Of a stretch of DNA of 21,630 bases, positions 1 to 21,630 are shown one piece after another (positions within the stretch are counted from its first letter, which is position 1; each line of letters opens with the position of its first letter). The notes beneath the pieces were generated by a model. It was not told the DNA's origin. It made no database searches and saw nothing but the letters and a program-made list of their open reading frames with translations. The translations under genes and the position numbers were made by a program. The DNA lies in the IMG/VR virus record IMGVR_UViG_3300025300_000113, positions 1-21,630 of that record; one strand, written 5' to 3'. The DNA comes from a virus.

Positions 1-1150
1 GGTCACGGCTTGTTGGCGTGGGGAGCATCCTCGCCGCCAATGCCAGCGGTGGCGTGGCGACCTTGCCGGCGGCGTGTCTCGCCAGCCATGACTCCTCGTC
101 CTCGTCGGTGGTCTTGCCAGCCCTCGGAGTTGGGAACATCTTGGCCGCATGGTGTAGGTGTATCTGCTGCTTCGAACCTTGCCAACTCGGTTGATGCGGC
201 GATGAACCGCCACTCTTTGGGTCATTGTAGGCATCCGGCGTAGGCCACATCTTGACCGTCTTGGACAAGCCTTCTCCCTTCCCGGTGTTCGGGTTGGTGC
301 CAGGCCTCTCGGTGCTAGTGGGCGTGGGCCACATAGCGGCGGCGGCACCTAGACCGATCTGATGACCCTTGGCTAATTCGCTTAGTGCTGTTTCCGCACT
401 GATGCCGCTATGGGTGCCACCACTGGACGCATTGGGCGTGGGCCAACGATTCACGAAGTCGGGCAGGCTCACCGAGTGCATGGAGTCATCAGATTGCTGC
501 GAGGACTCCAGATTCCCCGTGTAAACATCCGCCGAGGTCGGCGTTGGGATATGCCATTTATCCACTTCGGTTGCCAACTGACGCTGGTTGCACCCTCGCC
601 TCGTATCCCTCGTATTGGGGGTAGGCCACAAGCCACCACCGTTTGCGGAGGTGCGGTGCGCCTGCGTTGGAAGCGGAAACAACTCGCCAGACCGCGTCAT
701 ACCCTGCGTCGGCCAACTCTCCGACCACGGTGCCCCCATATGGTGGCCGTCCATCAGATCCCACAAGGATGCCTGGGACGTTCTCCAGGATGACGATTCC
801 TGGTCCCACTTCCCCAATGATTCGGAGCGTGTCGGGCCAGAGATCTCGATCATCGGAAAGCCCTCTGGCAATCTTTCGTAGCCCCGCGTTTGAGTGAGGT
901 TGGCAGGGGAAGCCAGCTGACAAAATATCCACTCGTCCACGCCAGGGTCGCCCGTCGAATGACTTGATGTCATCCCAGATGGGAGCGTCATCGAGAAATC
1001 CATCGACTTGACGCTGGCGGATGACTTGCTGGCAGTACTTGTCCCACTCGACGTAGCAGACTGTCCTGGTTTGGATACCGGCGAGTCGGAGCCCGAGGCT
1101 GAATCCACCATATCCACTGAACAGATTGAGTTCGGTATATGTATCCACAT
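1..1150 (-). CDS. Overprinted ORF covering the methyltransferase and continuing as a WPTP-repeat protein (partial, 3' end off the window)
   Basis: This minus-strand frame is open from an ATG at 1150 to the left edge (383 codons, no stop). It is shifted by one base from the methyltransferase ORF and contains all of it. Residues 1-~100 are rich in Ser, Thr, Gly and Pro and look like a frame shadow. From about 853 downward it becomes distinctive: SSSWRTSQ, then SWPTQGMTRSGELFPLPT. Below position 631 there is a series of W/F/L-P-T-P motifs (about 628, 556, 445, 331, 247, 137 and 25, plus a weaker ATPP near 58). As I recall, phage-encoded proteins near cytosine methylases, or the C-terminal parts of such methylases, carry repeated (L/W)PTP(T/N)xxD motifs of unknown role. 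The part below 558 has no competing minus-strand gene and is probably truly coding. The start is unsure: ATG 1150 lies 4 nt after AGGAG, and ATG 1003 or 853 are alternatives. A frameshifted single methyltransferase is the main rival reading. Confidence 0.6.
   Translation of the reverse strand, partial: MWIHIPNSICSVDMVDSASGSDSPVSKPGQSATSSGTSTASKSSASVKSMDFSMTLPSGMTSSHSTGDPGVDEWIFCQLASPANLTQTRGYERLPEGFPMIEISGPTRSESLGKWDQESSSWRTSQASLWDLMDGHHMGAPWSESWPTQGMTRSGELFPLPTQAHRTSANGGGLWPTPNTRDTRRGCNQRQLATEVDKWHIPTPTSADVYTGNLESSQQSDDSMHSVSLPDFVNRWPTPNASSGGTHSGISAETALSELAKGHQIGLGAAAAMWPTPTSTERPGTNPNTGKGEGLSKTVKMWPTPDAYNDPKSGGSSPHQPSWQGSKQQIHLHHAAKMFPTPRAGKTTDEDEESWLARHAAGKVATPPLALAARMLPTPTSRD
558..1148 (-). 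CDS. C5-cytosine DNA methyltransferase, catalytic domain only
   Basis: This 196-residue protein would transfer a methyl group from S-adenosylmethionine to carbon 5 of cytosine in DNA. Motif I (LNLFSGYGGFSLGL, residues 7-20) binds the cofactor. Motif IV, GFPCQPHSNAG, carries the nucleophile Cys82. Motif VI is ENV (122-124), and the motif VIII region, GAPHLRKRWWLVA, is at 163-175. The frame stops soon after motif VIII, so the target-recognition domain and motifs IX-X are missing. Full C5 methylases are usually over 300 residues. The start is a GTG placed 6 nt after AGGAG, which overlaps the stop of the upstream zinc-ribbon gene; the next gene upstream ends 9 nt away. A second frame is open through the entire gene and continues beyond it, so the missing part may be supplied from that frame, or the enzyme may be a short or inactive form. 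Phages use such enzymes to evade restriction or mark their DNA. Confidence 0.85.
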   Translation of the reverse strand: MDTYTELNLFSGYGGFSLGLRLAGIQTRTVCYVEWDKYCQQVIRQRQVDGFLDDAPIWDDIKSFDGRPWRGRVDILSAGFPCQPHSNAGLRKIARGLSDDRDLWPDTLRIIGEVGPGIVILENVPGILVGSDGRPPYGGTVVGELADAGYDAVWRVVSASNAGAPHLRKRWWLVAYPQYEGYEARVQPASVGNRSG

Positions 1151-1157
1151 AGTTCTC

Positions 1158-1322
1158 CTAGAACCCCGGTAGCCGGGGCCGATCTTCCAGGCTGGCAACA
1201 ACATCCATGGGGGCTGGCTCTGAATGCCCACATGGGCAGAGCAGGGTGAAGACCGGTGGTTCATGTGGGTCAGGGCGCAGCATCTCCGCTGCCATCGGTT
1301 CATCACAATCAGGACATCTCAT
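1158..1322 (-). CDS. Small zinc-ribbon protein
   Basis: This 54-residue protein has two cysteine pairs, CPDC near the N terminus and CPCGH about 24 residues later, the layout of a zinc ribbon. The second of two tandem ATGs is chosen because GGGGAG lies 6 nt upstream of it; the first ATG (1325) would be only 3 nt away. A longer in-frame extension to 1424 crosses a hairpin and a repeat cluster and looks untranslated. The gene's TAG stop lies in the Shine-Dalgarno region of the methyltransferase, so the two are probably co-transcribed and coupled. Function unknown; small zinc ribbons in phages often bind nucleic acid or proteins. Confidence 0.6.
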   Translation of the reverse strand: MRCPDCDEPMAAEMLRPDPHEPPVFTLLCPCGHSEPAPMDVVASLEDRPRLPGF

Positions 1323-5561: not shown

Positions 5562-5969
5562 TTCTTTTTCTAAGGTGTTCACTTAAGATCAACTTACCGG
5601 ACGCAACCATACAGGACGGCATAAAACATTACGCTATCGATTCTCTGGACGTTCACTTCAAATCAACTTACCGGACGCCACCACAGAGTACTGTACAACA
5701 CAGTACGCTATCAATTCTCTGGACGTTTACTTAAAATCAAATGGCACCAAAACACATGACAAAACGTAACCCCACGACACCCCACGGGACTGGACGGTAT
5801 CAATTCTCTGGGTGTTCACTTCAAATCAACGTACCGAACGCAACGCCTACTTAACCGAACTAAACAAAATCAATTCTCTGGATGATTACTTCAAATCAAC
5901 TAACAATACTGGACCGGGCAGAACTATACCAGACACAATCAATTCTCTGGACGTTCACTTCAAATCATT
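5562..5969. repeat. Array of degenerate ~32-bp repeats at 69-89 bp spacing (iteron-like)
   Basis: Five clear copies begin at 5636, 5710, 5799, 5869 and 5938, with a decayed copy at about 5562. The plus-strand consensus starts ATCAATTCTCTGG and continues ACGTTCACTTCAAATCAAC. Copies differ by one to about five substitutions. Periods are 74, 74, 89, 70 and 69 bp, not multiples of three overall, so the array does not encode a repeated peptide. The gaps are partly related to each other: ACCGGACGC and ACGCTATC recur. The plus strand is rich in A and C and poor in G. There is also a 7-bp inverted repeat (GTACTGT/ACAGTAC) at 5688-5706. The array fills the gene-free gap 5549-6010. It may be an iteron-type origin, a multi-copy binding site or a structured RNA; no function is shown. 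Confidence 0.8.
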
Positions 5970-15216: not shown

Positions 15217-16263
15217 TTGTTAGCGATAGGCGGAGGTATCCAGACAGTAGTTGACTGGATGGCGGTCTTCGGCATAACCGGGACATTCGGCCTACTGGTG
15301 ACCGCTCTGCTCACGGTGGGCATAGCTTCGGTTGTGACCACTGGCCTGGTCTGCTTGCTCTGGAAGTACCGGAGTAAGGTGGTCAGAGATCACGACCTGC
15401 AACTGTCCAGGTTCGCGGCACCGGGATTCCCTGGCATGTCGTTCCTGAATGCCCTACGCATACCCCACCCCAAGTTCAGGATAGAACTCAGTGGTATGCG
15501 GGGAGTCGGACTCACTCTAGGCGTGGTGGCTCTGGGCTTCGGACTAGCATTCGCTTTCGTAGTGGTCGCGACCGATGACACGCCTGTCTGGCCTGAGTCA
15601 GGTGCCGAGTACGCGCTACCGGACATATTCGGTGACAAGCTGGAGCCTGACCCTGATACACCAAGTCAGGCATCCCAGACCCTACGGGTAGGCTTCAAGG
15701 ACAAGTCCCGGCTGGATAAAGTGGTCTTCAAGAATATGGATCTTGGCAAAGCCGACCTGACCAATTCCTTCCAGGTGATGAGGAACGCGACCACCGGGGT
15801 TACCGGGTCTGCTGCTTATCTCTGGATAGGGGAGATAATCATTAAGAACAGCAGTGCGCCAACCCTGGCATGGGATAACATGGATGTTGGCACTATCGTA
15901 TTGGGCGCAAAAGTCGATGGCCACACCCAGGAGATACAGTTCGACCAAACCGTTCCAGAGATTATCATAGACAGCGACCGGGGGTCAGGGACGTATGAGG
16001 CCAGTGGCGACGTTGACCGTATCATCCTCCAAATCAACGGCAATAACGGGGCCAGTATAGGTGTACTGGAGATAGACAATGTAGATGCTTCTGTGGGAGC
16101 CTGGGACTGGGATTATATCAAGGCTGGAAGTATCACGATGGACAACACCAACGAGTTCGGTAACGGCACAGGCATCGACACGGCCAGTGCTACATTCGGC
16201 ACCGGCATATCCAGTAGGCAGGTAACCGACACGATGACCGACACACCGATAAGCGTCCGATGA
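15217..16263 (+). CDS. Membrane-anchored protein with a large beta-rich domain
   Basis: This 348-residue protein has a hydrophobic N terminus with one or two segments (about residues 10-48) and another at about 96-120. A long polar region follows, rich in Asp, Asn, Gly, Thr and Ile, resembling a repetitive beta structure (strands such as VVFKNMDLGKADL, GTIVLGAKVDGH and IILQINGNNGASIGVLEID). It starts with TTG 3 nt after the preceding stop. The family is unknown. With its neighbour it may form a membrane complex used during infection or lysis. This insertion between terminase and portal genes is unusual for tailed phages. Confidence 0.65.
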   Translation: MLAIGGGIQTVVDWMAVFGITGTFGLLVTALLTVGIASVVTTGLVCLLWKYRSKVVRDHDLQLSRFAAPGFPGMSFLNALRIPHPKFRIELSGMRGVGLTLGVVALGFGLAFAFVVVATDDTPVWPESGAEYALPDIFGDKLEPDPDTPSQASQTLRVGFKDKSRLDKVVFKNMDLGKADLTNSFQVMRNATTGVTGSAAYLWIGEIIIKNSSAPTLAWDNMDVGTIVLGAKVDGHTQEIQFDQTVPEIIIDSDRGSGTYEASGDVDRIILQINGNNGASIGVLEIDNVDASVGAWDWDYIKAGSITMDNTNEFGNGTGIDTASATFGTGISSRQVTDTMTDTPISVR

Positions 16264-16391
16264 CGAGGATAGTACTGATAGGATTTACCAGTGTCATCCT
16301 GGCGGCCTGGATCACAGCGGGGATGTCTTTATGGCTGGTGGTAGGCCCATGGAGATTAGCAACCCGTGTCTTGAAGCCGGTCAACCCGTGA
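16260..16391 (+). CDS. Tiny membrane protein, 43 residues
   Basis: MTRIVLIGFTSVILAAWITA and MSLWLVVGPWRL form a single hydrophobic segment followed by a basic tail. The ATG overlaps the previous stop (ATGA), and its own stop overlaps the next start (GTGA). This double coupling supports a real gene. Function unknown; small lysis or accessory membrane protein is possible. Confidence 0.55.
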   Translation: MTRIVLIGFTSVILAAWITAGMSLWLVVGPWRLATRVLKPVNP

Positions 16392-16513
16392 CGAGAGTAC
16401 TCCACTGGCTGTGTTCAAGGGGGCTGCACTGGTACGTCGAACTCGATGACAGGAAACGCACCTGCGCCGTCTGCCGTATAGTTGCGGTGAACGGACGCTC
16501 ATTAGGTCTTTGA
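16388..16513 (+). CDS. Small Cys-containing protein, 41 residues
   Basis: It starts at a GTG overlapping the previous TGA. The product has two tryptophans (VLHWLCSRGLHWYVELDDRK) and CAVC near residue 28, possibly a partial zinc-binding site. The family is unknown. It ends 10 nt before the portal gene. Confidence 0.45.
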   Translation: MTRVLHWLCSRGLHWYVELDDRKRTCAVCRIVAVNGRSLGL

Positions 16514-16523
16514 CGAGGTAGTT

Positions 16524-18410
16524 TTGAATTTCGATGAGAAACCAACGGTAGAATCGATACGCCAGATGGTGAGACATCTGGAAGGCGTATGGAGCCGTAC
16601 CCATGCCAAATGGCAGGTGGTGGACAGTTACTACCAGCAGGAGTACCGGCTGTGGCCCGAGGGACTCGACCGCCCCGAATGGCTCAAACCGGCACGTTCA
16701 CGTTCCATCGTAGACCACGCTACCGACCACCAGTTGGCTCACGATCCCATCGTTTCCCGTCCTGCCGCAGGTGACGAGGAGGAAGACCGGGCCAAGGCTG
16801 ACCGGGTGGAACCGGCCCTCAAGTCCATCCTGGACGAGGCCGCACTGCTGGAGCCCACGCTCACCTGGAAGCAGGCCGGTAAGCATATGCTCCTCTACGG
16901 TTACGCCGTCATCGAAGATGCCCTCGACACCGGTGTCATGCAGGCCAGGCGCAACAAGATACGGCGAGGCAAGGGCGAATCCGATGAGGAGTTCAACCAG
17001 CGTCAACGGGTGCAGACCAATAAGTCCCGAACCATGATGCCCTTCCGGGTGAGAGCCCCACATCCGTCCCGGGTGCTGCTTGACCCTTCCGAGAAGGAAC
17101 CAAGGATAGCCGTCAAACACGGACGGCGGCGTTCCATCGACCTGGAAGAGATAACAAAGAGCCGTATGTCGGCAGCCAAAGGCTACCGTCGCGGCGAGGT
17201 CACCCCGTGGGAATGCGGAGAAGATCCTTTCGCCTGGGTGAAGACCGAGGAGTACTGGACCGATTGCTGGCACGCCCTTGTGGCAGACAGTGAACTCCTG
17301 TTCGTCGAGAAGAATACCTGGGGTTTCGTTCCCTTCAGCCATGCCTTCGCCGGTTTCGGCCAGCAGGTGACGGCTGTAGATGAGGACGATCCCAGTTACC
17401 TGGCCGTGGGGATACTGGAGCCGGTCATGCCGAGCTTGCGTGCCCAGGCCCAGGCGGTGGCCGGTAGGCACAACGCCCTGCTGGACGCCACCTTCAACCC
17501 CGTCGGCACGACCATGGACGCGGCGGAACTCCAGGAGCAACTGGCCCGCGGCGACATCGTGGAGATGGGAACGAGAGGTGATGTCTGGAGGATGGATATA
17601 CCCCAGCTTCCCCGGTGGCTCTTCGCCTCCGAGGAATGGCTGGACAGAGATATCGAGCAGGGTACATTCACCCGGGCTCTGGCCGGCATCCGGGAACAGG
17701 GTGTCTCCACCGTGGGACAGCAGGCCATACTCAGTACGGCGGCAGGACGTAAGTTCGTTTCGCCCTCCCGGCAACTGGAACACCTGGCTACCACCACGGC
17801 GTCCCACATACTCCAGTGGATAGATGTCATCGGCATGACCCTGCACGTTCAGGGCAACTCGATATCGCCTTCGGACATCCAGCATGATTACAGTTGCAAG
17901 GTCAGTTTCGAGTTGATAGACCCGGTACTCCAGATGCAGAGCCGGGAACTTGGTATGCGCGAGGTGCAGCAGGGACTCAAGTCCAAGGAGACCTACTGGT
18001 CTGCCGATGCCAGACTGGAAGACGCTACCGGGGAACGCCGCAGGTTGCTCCAAGACCTGATACGGACGGACCCCGAGGTGCAGCGCGTACTGGCGGCAGA
18101 GGTTATGAAGGAATCAGGCATCCTCGATCTGGTGGAGAGGCAGCGTGCCTCTCAAGAAGAAGCGGCGGCTGGACCGATGGGCGGTGGTGGCCCTCCGGGT
18201 GGTATGCCAGGTGGTATGCCGGGTGGCCCTCCCGGAGGCATGATGGGCGGCAACGGCCAGCCGCCGCCTGTTCTTGGCCCGGACGGTATGCCTATGGATC
18301 AGACGATGGGCACCCCACCGGGACCGGCAGGTGGATTAAGAGAGATAAGACAGGGACTCACTCCATCCGTCCCACGCCCTAGCAGGGTGGGACAGAATCT
18401 GGCGGGTTAG
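16524..18410 (+). CDS. Portal protein
   Basis: This 628-residue protein starts at TTG after a GAGG site. Its size, position after the terminase genes and helical, Gln/Arg/Asp-rich composition fit the dodecameric portal through which DNA enters the capsid. Consistent features include MLLYGYAVIEDA (about residue 130), a VRAPHPSRVLLDPSE segment resembling portal wing sequences, and RAQAQAVAGRHNALLDATFNP. The C terminus (about residues 552-628) is Gly/Pro/Met-rich with GGMPGG repeats and is probably unstructured. The family call rests mostly on context and length, since no signature motif is decisive. Confidence 0.7.
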   Translation: MNFDEKPTVESIRQMVRHLEGVWSRTHAKWQVVDSYYQQEYRLWPEGLDRPEWLKPARSRSIVDHATDHQLAHDPIVSRPAAGDEEEDRAKADRVEPALKSILDEAALLEPTLTWKQAGKHMLLYGYAVIEDALDTGVMQARRNKIRRGKGESDEEFNQRQRVQTNKSRTMMPFRVRAPHPSRVLLDPSEKEPRIAVKHGRRRSIDLEEITKSRMSAAKGYRRGEVTPWECGEDPFAWVKTEEYWTDCWHALVADSELLFVEKNTWGFVPFSHAFAGFGQQVTAVDEDDPSYLAVGILEPVMPSLRAQAQAVAGRHNALLDATFNPVGTTMDAAELQEQLARGDIVEMGTRGDVWRMDIPQLPRWLFASEEWLDRDIEQGTFTRALAGIREQGVSTVGQQAILSTAAGRKFVSPSRQLEHLATTTASHILQWIDVIGMTLHVQGNSISPSDIQHDYSCKVSFELIDPVLQMQSRELGMREVQQGLKSKETYWSADARLEDATGERRRLLQDLIRTDPEVQRVLAAEVMKESGILDLVERQRASQEEAAAGPMGGGGPPGGMPGGMPGGPPGGMMGGNGQPPPVLGPDGMPMDQTMGTPPGPAGGLREIRQGLTPSVPRPSRVGQNLAG

Positions 18411-18653
18411 ATGGCGAGAAAGATAAGCGAGTTCACGGAAGCGATACTGGCGGTGGTTGCCGAGGTCTCCCAGGCCAAGGATAAGGCCAACGAGGCCGAC
18501 CCCATACCACCCATGGTAGAGCGCATGAGCATGAGTCAGGGCCGTAAGGAATTCCAGGACATGTCCGAGTTCCAGAGGCAGATGTTCCTGGATAACAATG
18601 GTCAGGCCAAACTGCTAGAGATGGCCCGGGGCAGGAGTGGATTCGATGGCTGA
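18411..18653 (+). CDS. Short helical protein after the portal gene
   Basis: This 80-residue, mostly helical protein starts with ATG right after the portal stop. The segment ILAVVAEVSQAKDKANEADP could form a helix, and SQGRKEFQDMSEFQRQMFLD another. No family is recognised. It overlaps the start of the next gene by 8 nt. It could be a scaffold-like or head-tail accessory protein. Confidence 0.6.
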   Translation: MARKISEFTEAILAVVAEVSQAKDKANEADPIPPMVERMSMSQGRKEFQDMSEFQRQMFLDNNGQAKLLEMARGRSGFDG

Positions 18654-21630
18654 AGTTGCAGAGAGGGTAGAGAGGGTTGGGTCGGGTTTGAAGAAGGGGA
18701 ATATCGTTAAACACTCCGCTTCTGGGGTGTGGTTGGTTTGGAACGGCACTAGAGGTGTTACCTTCCAGGAATACCTGGCGATAAACCCGGATGGGAACCA
18801 GAGCGTGATGGCGCAACAACAAGCCTTGAGCGACCTCCAGGGTGCGCTGTACACGATGGACGTTAAGAAGGTTGTTGGCACTGGCCCTTATAGTTGGGCC
18901 TTCATGGTGCAACCCACGTTGCAGCCCTCTGTTCCTGCCTATGGCAGATTGGATGTCCCGCGACCCGGGACGGCTACTTGGTATAGTGCTGAGGAGTTGA
19001 TGGTCAAAGCGTCCGATCAGTATGCCAAGGGCACCGCCCGTAAGGCCGATTTCAGTGGAGACCTTGACCAATATAAGGAGATATTAGGCTGGAAGGACGA
19101 GGACTTCTTAACCTTCGACCCGATGGGGGGCGAATGGGATGAAACCTCCCGCAAAATGACTGGTGAGCTTAAATTCGACCCCCAGAAGCACGCCATCTTC
19201 CTGAACGAGGTGAAGACTTACCTGGGGATGCTGGGCGACACCATGGCCGTCCATACCCTTGGTGATGGTACGAAGATCACCTCTTTCGAGGGGAAGCATT
19301 ATGTGGAACGCGGCGGCCCTCAAGAGGGCTGGAACGTAAACACCCTGAAAGATGCTGGAGGAGTAGCCAGGTTCATCGGGGTGACCGACCCTTCGGGCAA
19401 ACACAGTGTAGAAGCGATAGGTTCCCAGAATGCAGCCAACTATACCATGCTGGCCGAGTCTGAAGGCGGCAGGGTTGAACCTGATGTGAAACGGGCGCAG
19501 AGGAACTACGCCGCCGGGGAACAGCCACTGGCAGAAGGCGCGGTCATCAAGAACGTGGTGCCTGGATACGACGCCGTGCAGACGAGTGCCGGTAAGTATC
19601 AGTTGATATCCCAGCAGGAAGATGCCGATGTGGCTATCGGTGCCACCATCCCACTGCCTGATGGGCGGTACTCGGTCAAGGTCGCACCCGATAAGTACGA
19701 GACAGTCACGCCAGCATCCGGTGCCTGGTTCGTGGATGACTGGGGTAACGGCTGGATGCGGGACGATGATGGCTCGTTACAGCGAGTCCCGTCCCCATCC
19801 ATAGACGAGCAGATCAACCAGGCTTTGATACAGGGTAACAGTGACCGAGCATTGGCTCTCAGTGACTTCCGGGACCGTCCCAGCGCACAGGAACGCTTCC
19901 AGTTGGCTCTGGAATTCGCCCGTTCCCCCGGCGATATCATGGCTATCTCGGCCATCCTGGGTGGACTGGTGACCCCGCCGACGCCAGTGCCTGGGCAGGT
20001 GGCGCGAATCGCTGACCCGCCCACATGGGTAACCGAAGCATGGGAGCAGTTGCAGTCTTCCTGGGGAGTCCCGGACGTATTGAAGAACCCGGCACCGGGC
20101 GTCAGTAAGGATATCGATCCGCAGACGTTGCAGGATGCGTTGTCCACCGGAGATTTCCTGGGGGCTCAGACGCAATCAGCGGCGATGACCGCCGACCGGT
20201 CTCAAGGCATGGTTGAGGCTGAACGTGCAGACGAATTCGGAGACCTGGAGCCTCCGCCAGATTCGGGTATGCCTGGGGCTGGGGCTGCGCTGCTTCGGCG
20301 TGAACGCCAAGCAGTGCAGCGGCCTCCTCCCGCTCCTACCAGTCTCGACCTGGATGTGGAGCCGGGGCTAGTGGAAGACCCCATGGCCGGGGCGCGGATG
20401 CTTGCGACAGAAAGAGAGGATGCTGCTGGTGAATTCGCCCGCAGTATGGGCGAGGAAGGGGCATTACCTCCAGGCGAGTCGGGCCAGGGTCTTACCGCCG
20501 AGCAGCAGTTCAATCTTGCTGGCGGCGAGGAAGCTGCCCTGGAAGATTTTCGTCTTGAACTGGGCAGCCCCCATCAGGGCTATGAGCCGTATTATCAGAA
20601 CTATTCTAAACAATCCAGTACGCATAAAGGACGGTTCATCCCATCTGACTATGATCGGGCTAAAACTCAGGATGATGCATGGCACGCAGCACGGGATATG
20701 TTCGATGAGGCAGGCTTGAACATATTCTTCGTTGGCAACAACGCTCCGCAACAGGCCATCAACTATGTAGCTCGGGCATTCGGCCTGTTCCCTGGCGACG
20801 AGGGGTTCGTTCAGGCTGTTCAGGACCGGGCCGCAGTTCTGGTGAATAGCGCAGACCCGCAAGCGGCGTTGAATCATGCGAATCAGATAGACCGGTCGTC
20901 TGCCAAGGTGCATCCTAGCGCGAACCTTGTGGGAGCCTCTGGCGAAGCATTTGCAGACCCTTCTGCTGCATCCGTGCAGCAACAACAGGATGCAGCAGAA
21001 GGGCTTATCGGTGTTGACGCTGCCGACCCCGATGTCAATCAGGTAGATGATTTTGGTGAGTCATTAGCCGATGAGTTTGGCGATTTAGAGCCACCGACAA
21101 CTACGGTTAAAGATCCAGACGCTTTCGTCAAGGCGATGCTTGCTGAGGAACAAGCAACAAAAGCAGCGTTTATAAGACAACAGGATGACTTTGATGCCAG
21201 ATATGGCGAAGATTTAGAAGGTGTTCCCGTATCTGATCCAACCTCCCCGTCTATATCAGTGCCATCGGTTCCTGACTGGTTTGAAGAAGCGGGATCTAAG
21301 CCGACTGTCCAGACGGTCCCTGACTGGTTTGAAGAGGACACTTATTACGAGCCAACGCCGCCAGCAGTTACGAGATATGAGGAATACGAGAATATGGCAG
21401 GCGGCGGCACGACGTTCAGGGACACGATGGCCCTCGTTGGTGAGGAAGGCCCGGAGTTGGTGCATCTACCTGCTGGAACCGAGGTCATTCCCGCCGATTT
21501 CACCGAGGCTATGCTCCATGGCAGGAAGGCCAAAAGGATGGCTAATGGTGGGACAATGCCTTCTAATCTAACCTGGGGTGATATGGCGCAGGTAGGAGGG
21601 ACAGGCGGTGAAGTGATCAGAAGGTCGGAC
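18646..21630 (+). CDS. Long virion protein, tape-measure-like (partial, 3' end off the window)
   Basis: This frame is open for 995 codons from ATG 18646 to the right edge. The ATG has AGGAG about 8 nt upstream and overlaps the previous gene by 8 nt. The segment ALVGEEGPELVHLPAGTEVI near residues 941-960 matches the VGExGPExxxLPxGxxVIP motif typical of tape measure and related tail proteins. There are internal repeats: DEFGDLEPP occurs twice (about residues 527 and 807) and VPDWFEE twice. No clear transmembrane helices or long coiled coil were seen, which is unlike most tape measures. Much of the middle is low in structure and rich in Pro, Asp, Glu and Ala. It may be an internal or tail-associated virion protein. 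No capsid gene is visible before the edge. Confidence 0.65.
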   Translation, partial: MAEVAERVERVGSGLKKGNIVKHSASGVWLVWNGTRGVTFQEYLAINPDGNQSVMAQQQALSDLQGALYTMDVKKVVGTGPYSWAFMVQPTLQPSVPAYGRLDVPRPGTATWYSAEELMVKASDQYAKGTARKADFSGDLDQYKEILGWKDEDFLTFDPMGGEWDETSRKMTGELKFDPQKHAIFLNEVKTYLGMLGDTMAVHTLGDGTKITSFEGKHYVERGGPQEGWNVNTLKDAGGVARFIGVTDPSGKHSVEAIGSQNAANYTMLAESEGGRVEPDVKRAQRNYAAGEQPLAEGAVIKNVVPGYDAVQTSAGKYQLISQQEDADVAIGATIPLPDGRYSVKVAPDKYETVTPASGAWFVDDWGNGWMRDDDGSLQRVPSPSIDEQINQALIQGNSDRALALSDFRDRPSAQERFQLALEFARSPGDIMAISAILGGLVTPPTPVPGQVARIADPPTWVTEAWEQLQSSWGVPDVLKNPAPGVSKDIDPQTLQDALSTGDFLGAQTQSAAMTADRSQGMVEAERADEFGDLEPPPDSGMPGAGAALLRRERQAVQRPPPAPTSLDLDVEPGLVEDPMAGARMLATEREDAAGEFARSMGEEGALPPGESGQGLTAEQQFNLAGGEEAALEDFRLELGSPHQGYEPYYQNYSKQSSTHKGRFIPSDYDRAKTQDDAWHAARDMFDEAGLNIFFVGNNAPQQAINYVARAFGLFPGDEGFVQAVQDRAAVLVNSADPQAALNHANQIDRSSAKVHPSANLVGASGEAFADPSAASVQQQQDAAEGLIGVDAADPDVNQVDDFGESLADEFGDLEPPTTTVKDPDAFVKAMLAEEQATKAAFIRQQDDFDARYGEDLEGVPVSDPTSPSISVPSVPDWFEEAGSKPTVQTVPDWFEEDTYYEPTPPAVTRYEEYENMAGGGTTFRDTMALVGEEGPELVHLPAGTEVIPADFTEAMLHGRKAKRMANGGTMPSNLTWGDMAQVGGTGGEVIRRSD

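Follow-up and report, generated by a model that had tools for sequence, protein, structure and literature searches.

The locus considered here raises the question of why two long reading frames on the same strand remain open across a single DNA methyltransferase gene, and what the second of them encodes. It lies at one end of an IMG/VR virus fragment of 21,630 bases (record IMGVR_UViG_3300025300_000113; the whole fragment is called the window below), the phage genes of which include a terminase and an exonuclease. The frame designated alpha encodes the catalytic half of a C5 cytosine methyltransferase, and the frame designated beta is read in +1 relative to it. We consider it probable, at roughly 0.8, that the locus represents one two-subunit C5 cytosine DNA methyltransferase encoded in two same-strand frames.

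Two frames at the window edge

Alpha (positions 558 to 1148, minus strand; 196 amino acids) begins with GTG at 1148 and stops at 558, just past motif VIII. It matched positions 4 to 165 of 324 in PF00145 (E 6.2e-34), as well as phrog_363 (E 6.3e-55), and thus contains catalytic motifs I to VIII only, PCQ and ENV included. The small domain, comprising the target-recognition region and motif IX, and the motif X that follows it are absent from this chain; in relatives, the elements beyond motif VIII sit in the beta frame rather than in alpha. Beta (positions 2 to 1150, minus strand) begins with ATG at 1150, at the start of alpha, reads all 591 bp of alpha coding DNA in the +1 frame and runs off the window edge after 383 codons. 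Its single-coded part (2 to 557, minus strand) carries repeated (W/F/L)PTP motifs and is presumably the start of the target-recognition region. The frames and coordinates given in a preliminary description, which had been made from the sequence alone, were exact.

The second frame belongs to a conserved protein family. In profile searches, phrog_1008 was matched by the window beta with E 6.1e-23 and by the betas of relatives with E values of 1e-16 to 1e-105, while tblastn with the window beta retrieved 161 phage records, and the complete beta of two relatives (L021/L001) was 59% identical to it. Pfam and PDB sequence searches with beta returned no match. The preliminary description had proposed a second, methylase-linked family; a conserved overlapping gene is indeed present, but rather than a separate family it is most likely the target-recognition and motif IX half of the same enzyme.

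Complete relatives divide one motif set between two frames

In the complete close relatives L001 and L004 to L006, several PTP repeats in the beta frame are followed by LSPDWVSWLMGLPIGW and, farther on, by RVNRLKCLGNGIVPASLALFL; this frame also contains RVNRLKCLGNGIVP. The C terminus of the L001 beta matched positions 261 to 309 of phrog_363, which form the C terminus of this methyltransferase profile, and by sequence this terminal part is motif X; directly before it, at the place expected for motif IX, stands LSPDWVSWLMG. In the sub-family of the window, represented by L001, beta thus appears to hold motifs IX and X and alpha lacks X, so that alpha and beta together would hold one complete C5 methyltransferase set. 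In two other split forms, L013 and L108, motif X is likewise read in beta but follows a different tail, so that its transfer to this frame may have occurred more than once.

The main reason for reading beta as the other half of the enzyme is the order of elements in gp70 of Mycobacterium phage ShiLan (L029), where a single frame carries, in succession, the motifs of alpha, the PTP repeats, RLAPAFSEWMMGWPAGW and motif X. Residues 1 to 385 of gp70 match the methyltransferase profiles phrog_363/116, and residues 196 to 388 match phrog_1008 with E 2e-61. Judged by these alignments, the C-terminal part of beta and the C-terminal half of single-chain C5 methyltransferases are homologous (ShiLan gp70; phrog_116 positions 409 to 492).

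Structure prediction agreed with an incomplete alpha. AlphaFold gave a double-coded alpha a confident catalytic domain (residues 1 to 175), a disordered stretch (189 to 256) and a confident motif X helix, and in a Foldseek comparison the matches of this model with M.HhaI and M.HaeIII extended across some 170 columns, within the large domain only. Alpha therefore lacks the small domain, and its recognition domain must come from elsewhere.

In the proposed two-subunit enzyme, alpha would carry the cofactor site and the catalytic cysteine (motifs I to VIII), and beta, translated from its own start adjoining that of alpha, would supply the target-recognition region and motif IX, to which motif X would be added in the sub-family of the window. 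The enzyme would become complete once beta binds alpha, and beta is probably its specificity subunit. In the parental double-coded form, exemplified by L008 and Acinetobacter phage ABMM1, alpha retains motif X and beta would give motif IX from the same DNA. We infer that the pair methylates phage DNA, probably as protection against host restriction.

A large double-coded family

In L008 and ABMM1, both frames span the whole gene. Frame A contains motifs I to VIII, a variable region and TEPDVGRVAHGVxxRVDRLKALGNGQVP, frame B contains SWRTSQ, GMTRNG, repeated WPTP and LNPxWVEWLMGWPxGWTDLKPLE, and every frame B motif is the one-base-shift reading of a frame A motif. Beta-led scans of viral and genome contigs yielded hundreds of such stretches. 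When the scan was led by alpha, so that loci were not chosen for the presence of beta, 80 were obtained, of which 68 were double-coded and 6 split, with beta in the +1 frame of alpha. Altogether, 229 double-coded loci were collected (median overlap, 894 bp), in which beta lies in +1 to alpha for most of the gene or its whole length and, by the alpha-X and beta C-part models, alpha has motifs I to VIII and X and beta has motif IX only.

By their titles, the genome loci come from Pseudomonadota, Planctomycetota, Nitrospirota, Bacillota, Bacteroidota, Spirochaetota (Treponema), Gemmatimonadota and other groups. Of 5426 E. coli genomes, only 4 contain a close relative of the version in Salmonella phage S9-5, and no restriction-modification reference was found among these 5426. 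In a Roseovarius metagenome-assembled genome (OX638333.1; L168 to L172), the double-coded locus occurs at five chromosomal places with the same match, identity and score, which suggests repeated related prophages.

These surveys bear on the possibility that beta acts independently of the methyltransferase, for example in anti-restriction or regulation, and that the two genes share DNA without sharing a function. Outside the overlap there is no homologue of its N-terminal half, and the annotation of its family is by association only, as such a protein would allow. Against this stand the homology of its C-terminal part to single-chain enzymes, the missing small domain of alpha, and the scans themselves, in which no locus with beta but without an alpha frame was found, contig ends excepted. 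We thus regard an independent function for beta as quite improbable. Two apparently free-standing betas, ABMM1 gp60 and Geodirt gp4, were dismissed after an unannotated alpha frame was found beside or across each.

Motif images one base apart

The preliminary description had read part of the second frame as a one-base shift of methyltransferase motifs, which holds at the nucleotide level. On the minus strand of the window, motif VI of alpha (VILENVPG; 774 to 795) is read one base on as SSWRTSQ in beta, GYDAVW (684 to 704) as GMTRSGE, and VAYP at the end of the motif VIII region (604 to 627) as WPTPNTRD; the same images were seen in three-frame displays of relatives for the first (L001) and second. 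The VILENVPG/SSWRTSQ image recurs across double-coded loci, where, moreover, WVEW in beta coincides with VGRVA in alpha, W(R/K)T with ENS/ENV, and PTP with VA(D/Y/N/H); the 459 PTP motifs of double-coded betas most often coincide with VA(D/Y/N/H)(S/T/A/P).

How far such text signifies a protein family, on which the preliminary description was rightly cautious, depends on the part of beta concerned. When the codons of alpha were shuffled, the beta N-part model still scored a median of 79 bits, compared with 131 for real sequences, whereas the C-part model scored 6 bits compared with 77. The N-terminal text is thus largely mechanical, and the C-terminal text is not.

Purifying selection on both frames

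Because 6.6% of synonymous-codon shuffles leave the second frame open across the window overlap, its openness alone proves little. This value, together with the part of the N-terminal text forced by alpha, would fit a second frame that is only a by-product of the codon composition of the methyltransferase. Relatives gave a clearer answer. Among 158 double-coded loci, not one stop interrupted the beta span, which averaged 303 codons, with 4.8 expected under synonymous shuffling of alpha codons, and beta identity exceeded a null in which only alpha was held, with z >3 in 36 of 42 independent pairs (mean, 5.8). In contrast, 31 monomeric C5 methyltransferases used as controls (30 from a Pseudomonas genus sample, and L020) had 16.6 stops in the same frame, compared with 16.7 expected, and showed no excess conservation (mean z of 0.07 for ten pairs). 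Among pairs of at least 80% identity, differences fell on alpha codon positions 1, 2 and 3 in proportions of 44, 18 and 38% in double-coded loci, compared with 15, 8 and 78% in the controls.

Constraint on beta was found in all regions of double-coded loci, being strongest in the variable region and at the C terminus, and alpha was likewise constrained in all regions, above what beta forces. Thus, purifying selection acts strongly on both frames of the double-coded relatives, contrary to the lack of selection on the second frame that the preliminary description had named as a refuting outcome. In the overlap of the window's own sub-family, constraint on beta is weak but mostly positive.

The shuffles and the control methyltransferases led us to reject an artefact of codon composition, an explanation already refuted for the double-coded group. 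A sequencing error or a decayed gene as the cause of the split is at odds with close relatives from several contigs, which share the architecture. Taken together, by-product, error and decay retain hardly any credibility.

Paired starts and a possible ribosomal shift

In the window, the beta ATG (1150 to 1148) and the alpha GTG (1148 to 1146) start 2 nucleotides apart, overlapping as ATGTG, behind AGGAG (1155 to 1159, minus strand; TAGGAGAACTATGTGG), a likely ribosome-binding site common to both. A single such site could supply the two subunits in equal amounts. The ATGTG arrangement was seen in 4 of 172 distinct loci; the other recurrent spacings place the beta ATG 4 nucleotides after the alpha start or 2 to 5 before it. 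A distance of exactly 4 nucleotides past the alpha start (NTGAATGAG) was found in 71 loci and a spacing of -5 in another 19, which include what appears to be the same arrangement with the alpha start called late. A class of 63 loci has no beta start close to that of alpha, and in those inspected the beta frame opens ∼90 to 190 nucleotides inside alpha. The conservation of this start geometry speaks for the two-subunit reading.

The starts are also relevant to a different reading, in which a +1 ribosomal shift near the end of alpha joins motifs I to VIII to the recognition region and motifs IX and X, with no separate beta. Alpha and the downstream part of beta in the split sub-family would indeed form a complete enzyme in this way, and a one-chain relative exists in ShiLan. 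Nevertheless, beta has its own start adjoining that of alpha, the double-coded loci show beta-frame constraint upstream of any late shift site and have both frames running to the end of the gene, and alpha ends at differing sequences among split relatives, although no systematic search for a shift motif was made. A shift is therefore unlikely, yet it is the more plausible of the alternatives considered here.

Several observations weigh against the two-subunit reading. The window edge precedes motifs IX and X of beta; the overlap in its sub-family shows weak beta constraint, with z of 1.9 to 2.6 against the nearest kin, and 46 to 52% of its alpha differences at third positions. Moreover, the motif IX assignment rests on position and on a weak profile alignment of the beta C-part to the control methyltransferases (E 0.02), although motif IX is the sole place at which the two align, and beta alone was poorly modeled by AlphaFold (predicted local distance difference test score [pLDDT], 58; predicted template modeling score [pTM], 0.27), too weakly for a fold search.

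Origin of the overlap

In the phylogenetic tree, a single branch separated the monomeric controls from the overlapping forms, with ShiLan nested among split forms of mycobacteriophages; several branches are long, and L018 to L020 are poorly placed. This topology is consistent with a single origin of the overlap followed by partial separation, as in the window. A continuous methyltransferase frame in homologous genomes, which the preliminary description had named as a sign of sequence error, was found in one relative, ShiLan; as this nests inside the overlapping group, it does not bear out such an error.

The overprinting that the preliminary description had suggested is borne out insofar as the overlap is conserved and the 5' part of beta is a one-base overprint of methyltransferase motifs. 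Since the C-terminal part of beta is homologous to single-chain enzymes, overprinting is needed for its N-terminal part only, and we infer that this part and the variable part of alpha each arose by overprinting the other frame. Tentatively, and at slightly less than even odds, we propose that reciprocal overprinting built the two-subunit enzyme, probably once, and that the arrangement then reached phages infecting many bacterial phyla. A new beta N terminus would have overprinted the old catalytic frame of alpha in the 5' half; in the 3' half, the old recognition and motif IX frame, now beta, would have been overprinted by a new alpha variable region; and lineages such as those of the window and ShiLan would later have lost part of the overlap. 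Conservation is higher in alpha at the N terminus (about 0.92, compared with 0.77 in beta) and higher in beta in the variable region (0.49, compared with 0.42 in alpha), and each protein is predicted to be disordered, or is poorly modeled, where it is less conserved. Both patterns fit reciprocal overprinting without proving it.

Other features of the window

Elsewhere in the window, a 74-bp unit is repeated in 2.2 copies between minus-strand genes (5577 to 5740). Three long plus-strand open reading frames (348, 628 and 998+ amino acids) follow the terminase at 15217 to 21630; they have no PHROG match and are therefore probably divergent structural genes of a phage.

Annotation and comparison with known systems

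By profile, beta is a member of phrog_1008 ("DNA methyltransferase"), and counterparts of the locus are gene pairs of mycobacteriophages and Paenibacillus larvae phages; in public records, the parts are treated as separate or duplicate methylases rather than as two subunits. Among the annotated records opened, some give alpha only, some beta only and some both as "methylases." Some awareness of the nested frame is visible in P. larvae phage Redbud, the record of which gives beta as "g50 internal gene," and in ABMM1 (L028), Pseudomonas phage phPA-G (L310) and Gordonia phage Geodirt (L312), beta is annotated ("DNA methyltransferase" or "hypothetical protein") and the catalytic alpha is not. In the literature searched, no paper was found that describes the family as a dual-coded second subunit, and papers found on overlapping genes or on frame transitions deal with other cases.

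It is unusual for bacteria and phages to have dual-coded pairs of such length and such wide occurrence, and standard annotation discards them. If the two-subunit reading is correct, both chains have to be expressed in methylome studies of these phages, the large protein family labeled "DNA methyltransferase" gains a concrete role, and hundreds of natural replicates become available for measuring the evolution of two proteins on one sequence.

In M.EcoHK31I, methylation, at YGGCCR, requires both polypeptides, and beta is encoded in an alternative frame inside alpha, a likeness to the double-coded relatives that is taken here as a lead and not as a test. M.EcoHK31I and M.AquI are both two-polypeptide C5 enzymes (PMC3404938, PMC3439449); in M.AquI, alpha carries motifs I to VIII and beta the rest of the variable region with motifs IX and X (PMC3404938). 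Two-subunit C5 enzymes are thus already characterized, and what is new here is the extent and breadth of the overlap, the images between motifs and the proof that both frames are constrained. The double-coded group resembles M.EcoHK31I (and M.EaeI) in its motif division, with I to VIII and X in alpha and IX in beta, but here the overlap can span from start codon to stop codon. The window differs from M.EcoHK31I in that its alpha lacks motif X and the beta of its relatives carries IX and X. This division, found in L001 and L004 to L006, is that of M.AquI, from which the window may differ in turn in that its beta starts at the start of alpha and overlaps it by 591 bp in the +1 frame.
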